Source: Xanthobacteraceae bacterium (GTDB lineage: Bacteria > Pseudomonadota > Alphaproteobacteria > Rhizobiales > Xanthobacteraceae). From it: 64,000 bases of DNA. This document shows, in pieces, positions 36,343 to 57,426 of this stretch. Location of the stretch: contig JANINJ010000026.1 of assembly GCA_024508855.1 (NCBI GenBank), positions 248,001 through 312,000 on the forward strand, read 5' to 3'. Numbering within the stretch: the stretch's first letter is position 1; each line of letters starts with the position of its first letter. The position numbers and the translations under genes were made by a program. Below the pieces are notes generated by a model that did no database searches, was not told the origin of the DNA, and saw only the letters and a list, made by a program, of their open reading frames with translations.

Positions 36343-36633
36343 TGCCTCTCGGTGTTGGCGCTGCTGATGGGATTGGTCGCCGACGGGCGTTCGCGCGGAC
36401 AGGCGTGACGAACGCTGTTGTGGCGGCATTGCTGCCAATCCTTGGTTCGAACGGTTACTTTTCACCCACCCCGTGGCAGGCACACAAGAAGCAAGGGACG
36501 ATCCGGCGAATCCCCTGTAACCATAGCCCGGGGTTAGACGATTTGCCCAGCGGCGCCGGCTCAATTCTTGCGAGCCGGGGCACTTGCTGCCTAGATGATT
36601 ATTGATCTGTCGAAAGCGACGAAAGGAAGGCGT

Positions 36634-37452
36634 ATGTCTAAGAAAACGCGCAAGAAATCCTCTAAATCAACGCCCAAGAAGGCTGCGCGCCCCGCCTCGA
36701 AGACAGCAGCCAAAACGTCCGCGAAGAAATCCGTGGCCAAGAAAGTCGCAGCGAAGCGACCTCCTGCCCGCAAGGCAGCCGCGCCGAAACCGACAAAAGC
36801 GAAAGCCGCGAAAGCCAAGGCGCCGAAGTCAGCCCGCGCGCCTGCTCGCTCAGTCGCTTCGCCCAAGGCCAAACCCGTCGCAAAACCGGCGGTCGAGCCG
36901 ATAATCAAGGCCGCAGCCAGACCGGCGCCCACGGCACCGACGGCCCGCGTCAGCAACAATGCAGATCACAGCACGATTCGCGGAACGCAAATCCTGGCCG
37001 AAGGGTCGAAGGTCCCTGCATTTGAACTGCCACGCGACGGGGGCGAGCGAATCTCGCTGGCCCCGAATGCCGGACGTAGCCTCGTCGTCTTCTTCTATCC
37101 GCGAGCCGACACCCCCGGCTGCACCAAGGAAGCGATGGATTTCTCGCGGCTGGCTGCGGATTTTGCCGCCGCCGATACCGATGTCGTCGGCGTTTCGGCC
37201 GACCCGCTGAAGGCGCAGGAGGCCTTTCGCGACAAGCACGAACTGAAGGTTCCCCTGCTCTCGGACGAGCCGCACGACATTCTGGAAGCGTTCGGCGTAT
37301 GGGGTGAAAAATCGATGTATGGCAGGACCTTCCTTGGAATTCTTCGCACAACGGTTCTGATCGGTTCGGATCGAAAAATTCTCAAGATCTGGCATAACGT
37401 CAAGGTCGACGGTCATGCCGACGAGGTACTCGCATACGTCAAAACTCTGTAG
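36634..37452 (+). CDS. bcp: thiol peroxidase (Bcp/PrxQ family) with histone-like Lys/Ala/Pro tail
   Basis: The product is 272 residues from the ATG at 36634, preceded by AAAGGAAGG. Residues 1 to about 105 are a low-complexity tail of Lys, Ala, Pro, Ser and Arg (MSKKTRKKSSKSTPKKAARP and similar repeats), like histone H1 tails and AlgP. The peroxiredoxin domain runs from about residue 117. Its peroxidatic Cys163 is in FFYPRADTPGCTKEAMDF. The resolving Cys found five positions later in E. coli Bcp is absent (Met here), so it should act as a 1-Cys enzyme or use another partner. The tail suggests binding to DNA or another polyanion. Confidence 0.92.
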   Translation: MSKKTRKKSSKSTPKKAARPASKTAAKTSAKKSVAKKVAAKRPPARKAAAPKPTKAKAAKAKAPKSARAPARSVASPKAKPVAKPAVEPIIKAAARPAPTAPTARVSNNADHSTIRGTQILAEGSKVPAFELPRDGGERISLAPNAGRSLVVFFYPRADTPGCTKEAMDFSRLAADFAAADTDVVGVSADPLKAQEAFRDKHELKVPLLSDEPHDILEAFGVWGEKSMYGRTFLGILRTTVLIGSDRKILKIWHNVKVDGHADEVLAYVKTL

Positions 37453-37542
37453 TTTCATTCTCCGAAAATTAACCATGACAAGGTCAAATCGTCTGCAGTT
37501 TTGAGCCGAACCGGATCTGTTCCCGGCGGTGCAGGAGTGCTG

Positions 37543-38874
37543 ATGTCATACCCCTCGAGTCATGTTTCCGAACATCCCCAGCACCATTCACACCATCATG
37601 GCCGCTCGCCCGCCCGGCGGCCTCACCCTGCAGCCAAACCGACCGCGGTACCGCATCAAAGAACCGCCAATGGCTATACCCTCGCGCATGCGGGCAAACA
37701 GGTACGGTTCGGGCCGGTGGTGTTCTGGATCGTGGTCGGGACGGTAACGCTGCTCGGCGCATGGTCGGCCGCCACCGCGACCTACTTTGCATTTCGCGAC
37801 GACGTGCTGACGCGGCTGATCGCGCGGCAGGCCGAAATGCAATATTCCTACGAGGATCGCATCGCCGAATTGCGTGCGCGCATTGATCGCACGACGAGCC
37901 GGCAATTGCTCGATCAGGAGCAGTTCGATCAAAAGCTCGATCAGATCGTGCGGCGTCAGGCTGCCCTGGATTCGCGTACCGCGGCGCTCGGAGGCCTTTC
38001 CGACACCAGCGTGACGGGTTCGATCAAGGCCACGACGCGATCCCTGTCCGAGAAACTGTTCGGCAGAGCCAAGCCATCGCCGATCAGCGACAGCGGGACC
38101 TCCGTCGTTCGCCCGGAGCGTCAATCCCGACTCGATACCTCGTCCTCTTTTGCCAAGGATGAAAGCCTCGACACGACCATCAGCCGCCTGCAGGCGTCGC
38201 TCGACCGCGTGGAGAGTCGGCAGAACGCAGTGTTAGCTTCGGCGGAAGGCAGCGCCCAAGCCCGCCTGCAAAAGATGCGCGGACTGTTCACCGATCTGGG
38301 CTTGAATGCAGCACACATGGAATCGACGGCGCCGCGCGGCGTCGGCGGTCCCTATGTCCCGGTCAAACTGGCCGCCAATGCGGGACCGTTCGAGCGCCAG
38401 CTTTATCAGGTCAGCCTGACCCGTGCGCAGGCGGATCGCCTCACCCACACCCTCGCCCAGGTGCCGTATCGCAAACCGATCACCGGGCCGATTGAATTCA
38501 GTTCGGGCTTCGGCGTCAGAAGCGATCCGTTTCTCGGCCGGCCCGCCATGCATACCGGCCTCGACTTCCGAGCTTCGACCGGTGATCCGGTCCATGTCAC
38601 CGCCAACGGCAAAGTGGTGCATGCAGGCTGGGCCGGTGGCTACGGTCGCATGGTCGAGGTCGATCACGGCAACGGTCTCTCGACACGTTACGGCCACCTC
38701 TCCGCGATCCACGTCAAGGTCGGCGATCACGTCCAGATCGGACAGGTCGTGGGCCTGGTAGGCTCCACAGGTCGTTCCACGGGTCCTCATCTGCATTACG
38801 AAACCCGCATCGATGGCGAAGCCGTCGATCCGCAGCGGTTCCTTCGCGCCGGCGCACGCTACGCATCCAACTGA
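37543..38874 (+). CDS. M23-family metallopeptidase (LytM-type, membrane anchored)
   Basis: The product is 443 residues from the ATG at 37543 with a GGAG site. A His-rich cytoplasmic head (SEHPQHHSHHHGRSPARRPH) is followed by one membrane helix at about 57-77. Residues 80-260 are mostly coiled coil. The C-terminal M23 domain has the zinc ligands in MHTGLDFRASTGDPVH and GRSTGPHLHYE. Such enzymes cut peptidoglycan cross-bridges during growth and division, and rhizobial relatives (RgsM-like) serve polar growth. The catalytic His and Asp are all present, so the enzyme should be active. Confidence 0.93.
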   Translation: MSYPSSHVSEHPQHHSHHHGRSPARRPHPAAKPTAVPHQRTANGYTLAHAGKQVRFGPVVFWIVVGTVTLLGAWSAATATYFAFRDDVLTRLIARQAEMQYSYEDRIAELRARIDRTTSRQLLDQEQFDQKLDQIVRRQAALDSRTAALGGLSDTSVTGSIKATTRSLSEKLFGRAKPSPISDSGTSVVRPERQSRLDTSSSFAKDESLDTTISRLQASLDRVESRQNAVLASAEGSAQARLQKMRGLFTDLGLNAAHMESTAPRGVGGPYVPVKLAANAGPFERQLYQVSLTRAQADRLTHTLAQVPYRKPITGPIEFSSGFGVRSDPFLGRPAMHTGLDFRASTGDPVHVTANGKVVHAGWAGGYGRMVEVDHGNGLSTRYGHLSAIHVKVGDHVQIGQVVGLVGSTGRSTGPHLHYETRIDGEAVDPQRFLRAGARYASN

Positions 38875-38982
38875 CGCTGTCTCATCGTCACGGTCATCGG
38901 CGGGCGAACTTCGGCCCTGCTTGATACGTGACGATTGACATGCTTCATGTCGATCGTGCCACGCACGCTGGAGGTGCAGACA

Positions 38983-41151
38983 TTGAACGTCACGAAAAGC
39001 CGAATTGGGCCAACCTATCCACGGCTCGCAAGGACAGTTTTTCGTTCCGTGCAGTGGCTCAGCGAGCGCGTCATGCAGCGGAGCGGCTTTCACCGGCTCG
39101 GCAGCGACTTCGTCAATGCGCGACTTTCATCGATCAAGCAGCGATTGCAGCAGGGCGAAACGGTTTACATTGCCGGACTGGCCTCGTCCGGAACGCACAA
39201 CACGGGCGTCGCGCTGATCGAGGTGACGCAGGCCCACGGCCCCCGCCTGATCGTCAACAACGAAGAAGAGCGATTTTCCGGCAACAAGCACACGACCGAA
39301 TTCCCGCATCGCTCGCTCGATGAGATGCGCACCACATTGCAGCGGATGGGCCGCGACATCGACGACATCGCCGCATTCGTGACGACCTGGGATTATCCGG
39401 CGTTGATGGGCACGCTCTTTCGCACCGTTTTTGAGGAAGCGCCCGGCAGTTTCAAACTCCTGCGTCTCTCTAACGCGATCGGCATCGATCGACGTCGCCT
39501 CGATCAGATGCGGCGGACACCGCGCATCCTGGCCAGGCAATTCCATCGGTCCGAACCGGTGCCGCTGATCTGCCTGCCGCATCACGATAACCACGCATGG
39601 TTTCCTTACGCCGCATCGCCGTTTCCCGACAGCGAAGAACCGGTTGCGATCTGCATCGTGGATGGCACCGGCGACAGAGGATCAGTGTCGCTCTACGTCG
39701 TCAAATCCGGCTCGATGCAGAACATCTACTGCAACAACAGCGTGTTCGATTCACTCGGCGCTTTCTACAGCGTGATTTCATCGACGCAGGGCGGCTGGAC
39801 ATGGCTGTCGAGCGAAGGCCGCTATATGGGCGCGGCCGCGTGGGGCAACATGGACCGCGCAACGAACTCTTATTATGCACGGCTGCGGACGGTCCTTGAT
39901 TTCGGTCCGAACGGTGAAATCAAGCTCAATCGCGCGATGGCCAACTGGTATCGCGACCCGTTCGATAATCCTTACAAGCAGCCCCTCATCGATATTCTGG
40001 GCCAGCCTCTCAAGCCGGACCAGTTGTGGAATCCGGATGCCGTGCTGCGCGTCGAGGACATCCAGCACCGCCCCGATACGCAGGATCGTCTCGACAAGGC
40101 CGCCGCGACGCAGCTGGTACTGGAAGATGCACTGATCCACATCGTCGATCACCTGCTGCGCACGACCGGGGCCAACAAGCTAATCTTTTCCGGCGGCGTC
40201 GCGTTGAACGCGCTGGCCAGCATGCGGCTGCTCGATCATTTCGACGAGGCATGGTTCGCGAAGGCGCAGAACCGCAAGGCGCGATTGCATCTGTGGGTGC
40301 CGCCGACGCCGAGCGACCCCGGCGTGCCGATCGGCGCAGCGTGGTTGTTCGCTCATCTGGCGGGAGCGCGACGCGGAGCCGCGTTCACTCATGCATTTTA
40401 TTGCGGCACACCGGCCAGTAATGACGACATCGTTCAGGCCCTCGCAGCGCCAGACATCGCTTCCCAGCAGATCGGCAGCATCGCGAGCCGAGAGAATCGC
40501 GATGCCATCGCCGACCTGATGGCATACTGCGTCGCCGCAGGCGGCATCGTCGCCTTGTCGCAAGGCGCCGGAGAGACCGGACCGCGCGCACTCGGGCATC
40601 GCTCGATCTTCGCCAATCCGTGCGATCCGCTAACCCGTGAGCGGCTCAACGAACGCGTCAAATATCGCGAATCCATTCGCCCACTGGCGCCGATGCTGAC
40701 GCGTGAGGCGGCCGACGAGTTCTTCGAACTGCAGGAAGGCGCGTCGGACGCCGACTACAATGCCTACAACTACATGGTGCTGACCGCGCGTTCCAAACCG
40801 TCGGCGCGCCACAGGATACCGTCGGTGATCCACGCCGACGGCACCGGCCGCATCCAGATCGTACGCGAAGACGCCGATCCCCTCACCCACGCCTATCTCA
40901 AGGCGCTTGGCCGCCGCATCGGCGTCGAAGTGTCGGTAAACACCTCGTTCAACGTTGCCGGACCGATCGCACAAACGCCGGAACAGGCGATGGAAACGCT
41001 GCGCCGTTCGAAGGGACTCGATGCCGTGTTCATGGTTGCGGAGGACGGCACGGTACATGCCGCCTGGCATGGCGGCGACCGCGACAGCGGCCGTTTCAGG
41101 CAATGGTATGCGGAGTGGTCTGCTGCGCGGCCGGCTTCACAACCAAGGTGA
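38983..41151 (+). CDS. carbamoyltransferase of the NodU/CmcH family, no partner genes
   Basis: The product is 722 residues if started at the TTG at 38983, which has GGAGGT seven bases upstream; the earlier ATG at 38947 has no ribosome site. The N-terminal Kae1/TsaD-like domain holds IVNNEEERFSGNKHTTEFPH and the metal block CLPHHDNHAWFPYAASPF. The C-terminal domain holds QGAGETGPRALGHRSIFANP and RPLAPMLTREAADEFFEL, both hallmark blocks. These enzymes move carbamoyl from carbamoyl phosphate to a hydroxyl group of sugars or antibiotics. About 45 residues precede the first domain. No nod or antibiotic genes lie near, so the acceptor is unknown. Confidence 0.9.
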   Translation: MNVTKSRIGPTYPRLARTVFRSVQWLSERVMQRSGFHRLGSDFVNARLSSIKQRLQQGETVYIAGLASSGTHNTGVALIEVTQAHGPRLIVNNEEERFSGNKHTTEFPHRSLDEMRTTLQRMGRDIDDIAAFVTTWDYPALMGTLFRTVFEEAPGSFKLLRLSNAIGIDRRRLDQMRRTPRILARQFHRSEPVPLICLPHHDNHAWFPYAASPFPDSEEPVAICIVDGTGDRGSVSLYVVKSGSMQNIYCNNSVFDSLGAFYSVISSTQGGWTWLSSEGRYMGAAAWGNMDRATNSYYARLRTVLDFGPNGEIKLNRAMANWYRDPFDNPYKQPLIDILGQPLKPDQLWNPDAVLRVEDIQHRPDTQDRLDKAAATQLVLEDALIHIVDHLLRTTGANKLIFSGGVALNALASMRLLDHFDEAWFAKAQNRKARLHLWVPPTPSDPGVPIGAAWLFAHLAGARRGAAFTHAFYCGTPASNDDIVQALAAPDIASQQIGSIASRENRDAIADLMAYCVAAGGIVALSQGAGETGPRALGHRSIFANPCDPLTRERLNERVKYRESIRPLAPMLTREAADEFFELQEGASDADYNAYNYMVLTARSKPSARHRIPSVIHADGTGRIQIVREDADPLTHAYLKALGRRIGVEVSVNTSFNVAGPIAQTPEQAMETLRRSKGLDAVFMVAEDGTVHAAWHGGDRDSGRFRQWYAEWSAARPASQPR

Positions 41152-57325: not shown

Positions 57326-57426
57326 CGTTTGAACCCGTCGTGCGTCGAATCCATCTCGCGAATTGCAGGAACATCGCGCATTCCCTCTCGTTGTCACGCG
57401 GGCAGTGCAAAGAAGAGGAGACGAAG

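Follow-up and report, generated by a model that had tools for sequence, protein, structure and literature searches.

A histone H1-like Lys/Ala/Pro-rich tail on the PrxQ/Bcp peroxiredoxin of Bradyrhizobium and its relatives, a candidate nucleoid tether

It has been reported that bacterial Bcp peroxiredoxins bind and protect DNA in vitro; a review regards the physiological relevance of this activity as yet to be established (PMC8945050). The 1-Cys Bcp of Plasmodium is nuclear and is found in chromatin fractions (PMC3337327, PMC4053738). Among the basic tails described so far, a fragment of the AlgP tail and KPAA peptides bind DNA (PMC9239181), and TopA, HrdB, Ku, and HupS carry lysine repeats (PMC7398561). 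Here we describe a prxQ gene in a 64,000-nucleotide stretch of a Xanthobacteraceae genome (contig JANINJ010000026.1, hereafter the window). Its 272-residue product is a PrxQ/Bcp peroxiredoxin with an N-terminal tail (open reading frame, ORF, 36634-37452 on the + strand). We propose that Bradyrhizobium, Afipia, Nitrobacter, and their kin may possess a dedicated nucleoid-bound peroxiredoxin, in which an H1-like tail would turn the DNA affinity of Bcp into a fixed address, and that a second lineage may have reached a similar arrangement through an HC2-type gene directly before prxQ, probably translationally coupled to it. This combined proposal is tentative, and we put it a little short of an even chance.

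The tailed peroxiredoxin

The original prediction placed a tail of about 105 residues at 36634-36960 on a Bcp-type peroxiredoxin, and the interval, the length, and the fusion proved accurate. Residues 1-113 contain 25 Lys, 8 Arg, 32 Ala, and 15 Pro and only two Asp or Glu residues. In an AlphaFold prediction on 27 orthologues, residues 1-120 are without secondary structure (block predicted local distance difference test, pLDDT, 46-63 up to residue 120) and the peroxiredoxin domain is predicted confidently. The features of the locus are as follows.

36634-36972, + strand: histone H1-like Lys/Ala/Pro tail, residues 1-113, net charge +31, predicted disordered
36634-36666, + strand: conserved tail head MSKKTRKKSSK, codons 1-11, with synonymous codons kept at 2-5, 7, and 8
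36994-37449, + strand: PrxQ/Bcp domain, residues ~121-272, with peroxidatic Cys163 at 37120-37122 in TPGCT
36612-36633, + strand: leader GAAAGCGACGAAAGGAAGGCGT, conserved among orthologues, which holds the ribosome-binding site and abuts the start codon
32728-36564, - strand: divergent upstream neighbour, YhdP-like (Pfam YhdP 6e-23), a syntenic marker whose true start is probably further in
37501-38874, + strand: downstream neighbour, M23 peptidase (Pfam Peptidase_M23 7e-35), a syntenic marker

Among 150 non-redundant orthologues, 78 carry a tail of 36-179 residues. Across these tails, a spacing of four positions between Lys/Arg residues is enriched, making up 0.258 of the gaps vs. 0.108 after shuffling, whereas KK is depleted (106 seen vs. 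224 shuffled). The window tail alone has nine such gaps vs. 2.8 in shuffled sequences (P 0.001), and among 29 chosen tails the spacing reaches P < 0.05 in 12, namely the window tail and 11 of the other 28; it resembles the 4-residue KPAA repeats. Repeat expansion could contribute to the spacing; the DNA of the window tail holds only two short 9-base repeats. SPKK-type H1 motifs are not enriched (6 seen, 8.3 shuffled). Taken as a description, the label "histone H1-like" in the original prediction holds: the tail is predicted to be disordered, rich in Lys, Ala, and Pro, and poor in acidic and aromatic residues, and its charges are spaced. Taken as a family assignment it does not, since the tail scores below the cut-offs of the H1-like models in Pfam and NCBIfam and of HC2, which rules out membership of a named histone H1-like family; the window's genome has no HC2 (PF07382) match at 1e-5.

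Comparable stretches are rare. We listed 10,612 ORFs mechanically in 1.53 Mb of fetched loci, some of which overlap, and a K/A/P-rich (Lys/Ala/Pro-rich) 40-residue stretch was present in only four non-PrxQ ORFs, two of which abut prxQ; given this rarity, the tail is not a chance composition. Nor was it seen to be a common low-complexity feature of the genome: a genome search with the tail gave one other match only (E 0.765, with a stop), in a search whose bias correction may hide low-complexity kin. Separately, at one locus with a tail-less prxQ (L129), an ORF some 2 kb away from that gene (1936-2298) ends in a C-terminal part rich in Lys and Ala.

The enzyme domain begins at about residue 122. 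Pfam AhpC-TSA matches residues 124-250 at 7.7e-31, above its cut-off, and the NCBIfam PrxQ and thiol peroxidase models match at 1.6e-39 and 1.2e-38, scoring below their whole-protein cut-offs (135.2/260 and 132.4/140 bits). Bcp entries in the PDB were matched by sequence (best 4.1e-32) and by predicted fold (template modelling score 0.93, on the target's length). The PrxQ motif Pxxx(T/S)xxC, with Gly before the peroxidatic Cys, is present, and P156, T160, G162, and C163 are invariant in the 27 aligned rows. The full protein finds no other match in its genome at 1e-3 or at 1e-20, and judged from these matches it is the genome's predicted PrxQ/Bcp thiol peroxidase. The lack of the resolving Cys had been remarked upon together with the tail. 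It is correct that the window protein has one Cys (residue 163) and none five positions after it, but this is no special trait of the tailed design, since it is ordinary without the tail too: only one Cys is present in 68 of the 78 orthologues with a tail and in 57 of the 72 without one, and a Cys at +5 occurs in none of the former and one of the latter. Most prokaryotic BCP lack the resolving Cys, according to a review (PMC8945050).

The in-frame starts are 36595 (ATG), 36634 (ATG), and 36733 (GTG), the next being 37135, past the catalytic Cys codon at 37120. The ATG at 36634 is preceded by an AAGGA-type ribosome-binding site, the best-scoring site among them, and is backed by a leader common to orthologues. 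With no start between codon 34 and the catalytic Cys, the enzyme could not be made without at least ~80 tail residues; this start-free stretch and the conserved leader rule out a misannotated start.

Distribution, origin, and conservation of the tail

Genomes of 101 relatives were searched, 98 gave some match at 1e-3, and the loci were fetched. Another 71 loci were added from public genome contigs by patterns including tail peptides; this set is enriched in tailed proteins and is not usable for frequency. A single start-calling rule was applied and gave 157 loci (L104 and L107-L109 gave no PrxQ at threshold). For the family count, a tail was defined as at least 30 residues. The window's family is represented by 61 genomes, five of them without a usable PrxQ, and the tail is present in 21 of the remaining 56, across 13 genera. 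Tailed loci with a genus name come from Bradyrhizobium, Afipia, and one Nitrobacter assembly, and the window's genus is also tailed; the one Pseudolabrys locus has no tail. No tail was found in the 33 inspected genomes of the order's other families (strong matches in G065 and G087 stand outside this count). On whether orthologues keep a basic tail, the answer is thus divided: it is absent from 35 of 56 genomes of the family and from all 33 of the other families, and it is basic in 78 of 78 proteins that carry it.

We also drew 337 genomes class-wide, 240 of which had a match at 1e-20. The N-terminus was read in 47, namely the best matches and 20 chosen mostly for long open frames, which is not a random set; two of the 47 come from family f42, which belongs to the same order as the window. 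In one alphaproteobacterial PrxQ (L224), which has a Cys at +5 (TVQAC), a K/A/P/T-rich tail of 37 residues seems to have arisen independently. Another (L219) has a 17-residue stretch at its N-terminus, and a third (L221) has 34 residues of another kind after a weak GTG. Some apparent tails in the class-level matches were rejected as reading-frame shadows or products of weak starts.

A tree of the domain was built from 150 sequences with the tail columns excluded (four duplicate loci, one identical domain, and the distant L105 and L106 were dropped). All 78 tailed proteins fall on one side of one branch, whose Shimodaira-Hasegawa-like approximate likelihood ratio (SH-aLRT) support of 94 lies just below the program's mark for a firm branch and is not decisive in this quick type of tree. 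A single origin depends on a cut of 30-36 residues and on that one branch; setting the cut-off for a tail at 15-25 or 40-60 residues gives two to six changes on the tree instead of one. We infer that the tail was probably gained once, in the ancestor of the Bradyrhizobium/Afipia/Nitrobacter-type clade. The YhdP-like gene lies upstream on the opposite strand at all 82 tailed loci and at 72 of the 75 tail-less ones. On the other side of prxQ, the M23 peptidase is found at all 82 tailed loci and at 48 of the 75 tail-less ones (61 of the 75 hold more than 1500 bases downstream). Because the tail-less orthologues have the same locus and mostly the same leader, the tail would have been added after an existing start codon, and the simplest reading is an insertion between the old start codon and the enzyme. 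In the window, the M23 peptidase is followed by a carbamoyltransferase (Pfam Carbam_trans N and C, 38935-41151).

The 78 tails average 28.6% Lys+Arg and 1.6% Asp+Glu, with a minimum net charge per residue of 0.192, and none contains Cys. The tail of the window shares a mean identity of 51% with the others over aligned columns, the domains 65%. When neutral drift of the window tail was simulated, the mean net charge per residue was 0.165 at 60% identity and 0.113 at 39%, with 99th percentiles of 0.248 and 0.204. The observed tails exceed these percentiles in 62 of 78 and 75 of 78 cases, and all 78 lie above 0.165, under a simple drift model without insertions or deletions and for related tails that are not independent. 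The ratio of nonsynonymous to synonymous substitution (dN/dS) is 0.42 in the tail vs. 0.20 in the domain (120 pairs, 16 Bradyrhizobium loci). Charge is retained despite sequence drift, and this favours a function of the tail, in which charge would be what selection keeps.

The nucleotides around the start codon are conserved in their own right: a block of about 50 bases (36612-36663) spanning the prxQ start is kept across genera, synonymous sites included. Across the 78 tailed loci, conservation is 90% or higher at every one of the 22 positions preceding the ATG, and the leader core GACGAAAGGAAGGC is exact in 74 of these loci. With up to two mismatches, the core is found no more than 45 bases from the start in 77 of the 78 tailed genes and in 49 of the 72 tail-less ones (among tail-less loci, 34 of 36 in the window's family and 12 of 33 in the order's other families). 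It is found in 0 of 78 and 0 of 72 in a control stretch 200 bases further upstream. When up to three mismatches are allowed, the leader occurs once in the genome. Codons 2, 3, 4, 5, 7, and 8 are identical in 89-100% of residue-sharing pairs; codon identity in the domain has a mean of 0.55, a 95th percentile of 0.87, and a maximum of 0.949, codons 6 and 9 are ordinary (0.61 and 0.64), and the synonymous constraint fades past about ten codons. No RNA fold of the leader is more stable than shuffles, no Rfam family reaches its gathering score there (the single match, E 0.86, is at chance level), and no sigma-70-like promoter was found there. An EcfG-type pattern is absent at the leader and has its sole window match at 57368. 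The conservation of MSKKTRKKSSK may come partly from an RNA constraint, for example translation initiation or a small RNA target.

Possible functions of the tail

A free-standing gene may offer a parallel. HC2-type proteins match at 1e-5 in 91 of the 337 class genomes. In the two genomes of genus g258, from another alphaproteobacterial family, a Lys/Ala/Pro protein gene lies between glnE and prxQ (L208, 1694-2263; L211, 1805-2786). Its stop codon stands one base upstream of the TTG taken as the prxQ start, and the two genes are likely translationally coupled. The L208 protein passes the Pfam HC2 cut-off (69.4 vs. 40); the L211 protein alone is below it (35.4 vs. 40) and reaches 41.7 with its in-frame neighbours. 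The prxQ position could be compared in 54 of the 91 HC2 genomes, among the matches listed; HC2 adjoins prxQ in two of these, the next nearest being about 9 kb away (G205), and by rough arithmetic fewer than 0.1 such adjacencies are expected by chance. As a general pattern the arrangement was rejected: in that genus's order 12 of 15 genomes have prxQ and only the two of g258 have the HC2 gene, nine others being without it and one (L228) beginning at a contig end. We regard the adjacency as a hint only.

We propose, with slightly better than even confidence, that the tail is an electrostatic tether that holds PrxQ on the nucleoid. Like KPAA and lysine-repeat tails, the disordered Lys/Ala/Pro tail would bind to the backbone of DNA without sequence specificity, and would thereby keep the 1-Cys PrxQ where it could remove H2O2 and organic hydroperoxides near DNA. 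The enzyme could be recycled by thioredoxin or by glutathione/glutaredoxin; both are reported to reduce the 1-Cys enzyme of Burkholderia cenocepacia, the latter better (PMC8945050).

A number of observations weigh against the tether. The tail is under weaker constraint than the domain, it is missing from 35 of the 56 family genomes with a readable PrxQ, and in 17 of the 29 chosen tails the 4-residue spacing is not significant. The window tail has no Pfam match even at E 10, and its NCBIfam hist_H1_lk_Burk match has only E 0.26 (11.5 bits vs. a cut-off of 80). Adjacency of HC2 and prxQ is seen in one genus only. An ordinary Bcp, if it already binds DNA, would not need the tail for binding, and H2O2 diffuses, so tethering may gain little. 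The data on yeast Dot5, a nuclear thiol peroxidase, both support and limit the idea: tsa1 dot5 double mutants have more gross chromosomal rearrangements, but nuclear Dot5 has a minor role and a dot5 mutant is as resistant to H2O2 as the wild type (PMC2688748). Tails of the AlgP type also associate with polyphosphate granules (PMC9239181).

This last point leads to a rival explanation, that the tail is a polyphosphate anchor and recruits PrxQ to granules that themselves tend to the nucleoid region. AlgP, an H1-like KPAA protein, sits on polyphosphate granules in a manner dependent on polyphosphate kinases, and occupies the nucleoid when these kinases are absent (PMC9239181). The composition of the tail would suit a generic polyanion binder, but no pointer to polyphosphate was seen in the locus, where prxQ is flanked by genes for a YhdP-like protein and an M23 peptidase. 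We consider the anchor unlikely, and we favour the nucleoid tether with the polyphosphate anchor second. It is more improbable still that the tail binds RNA or ribosomes and positions the peroxidase at the translation machinery. Charge is the conserved trait of the tails, and Lys/Ala-rich disordered extensions are common in ribosomal proteins; however, no RNA-binding family in Pfam or NCBIfam matches the tail, and the sole adjacent free-standing protein is of the histone H1-like type.

We give a similarly low probability to a tail that serves the enzyme itself, through solubility, chaperone activity, or attraction of anionic substrates or membranes. The length range of 36-179 residues would suit an unspecific charged brush, and the PrxQ of Deinococcus is also a chaperone (PMC6590489). 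In our judgement, however, about one positive charge per three to four residues over more than 100 residues exceeds the needs of solubility, and the tail-less majority of PrxQ in the same family (35 of 56) has no such aid. Least probable of all, in our estimate, is a neutral low-complexity tail kept by chance or by mRNA constraint near the start. The unusually conserved start nucleotides would make part of MSKKTRKK a possible by-product, but the synonymous constraint is gone after about ten codons, whole tails hold their charge compared with simulated drift, the tail dN/dS is below 1, and the 9-base repeats in the window tail are just two and short.

If the nucleoid tether is correct, sister genera, some of them culturable, would constitute a natural experiment, since they carry prxQ at one shared locus either with or without the tail. 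The comparison would show whether a genome is better protected by a peroxidase placed on its DNA than by a free one, even though H2O2 diffuses. A thiol peroxidase would then join the short list of DNA-bound bacterial antioxidants, such as Dps, in root-nodule bacteria and their relatives.

Comparison with known systems

Dps is DNA-bound and protects DNA from peroxide; it is a ferritin-type protein without thiol chemistry and has a short tail. The original prediction knew of no characterised protein of the present design. An H1-like tail on a bacterial Bcp or other peroxiredoxin was indeed not found in the accessible text of the literature searched, which mostly excludes subscription papers; the novelty is limited, as a DNA-binding bacterial Bcp is already in print. 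The DNA-binding Bcp of Coxiella burnetii and DNA-protecting Bcp have the link to DNA that is proposed for the window protein and were matched by description only (PMC8945050). The PrxQ proteins of Xanthomonas (5iiz, 3gkn) and Burkholderia (5enu) are like it in fold, sequence (~residues 122-270), and active-site motif. Unlike it, they are chains of 153-163 residues without such a tail, and a second Cys, evident from a C84S mutant entry, is present in Xanthomonas PrxQ but not in the window protein. The Thermococcus TK0537 protein is a 1-Cys peroxiredoxin whose binding to DNA was assayed and which reportedly prevents damage to DNA. It differs in being archaeal and of the Prx6 subfamily, and no K/A/P tail is mentioned in the accessible text (PMC4416765).

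Among eukaryotic proteins, Plasmodium PfnPrx is likened to the window protein by description only. Yeast Dot5 (nTPx) has a PrxQ-like fold (2a4v) and works in the nucleus (PMC2688748); unlike the window protein it is an atypical 2-Cys enzyme, is located by the nucleus, and shows weak similarity (E 5.5e-9). AlgP and PhaF of Pseudomonas and the HC2-type proteins share with the window protein a disordered Lys/Ala/Pro tail with 4-residue repeats or spacing; they are not peroxidases, and the HC2 model fails to recognise the window tail. In actinobacterial topoisomerase I, H1-like lysine-rich repeats are carried by an enzyme, as in the window (PMC7398561). There the repeats are C-terminal and the enzyme acts on DNA itself, whereas in the window protein the tail is N-terminal and is joined to a peroxidase.
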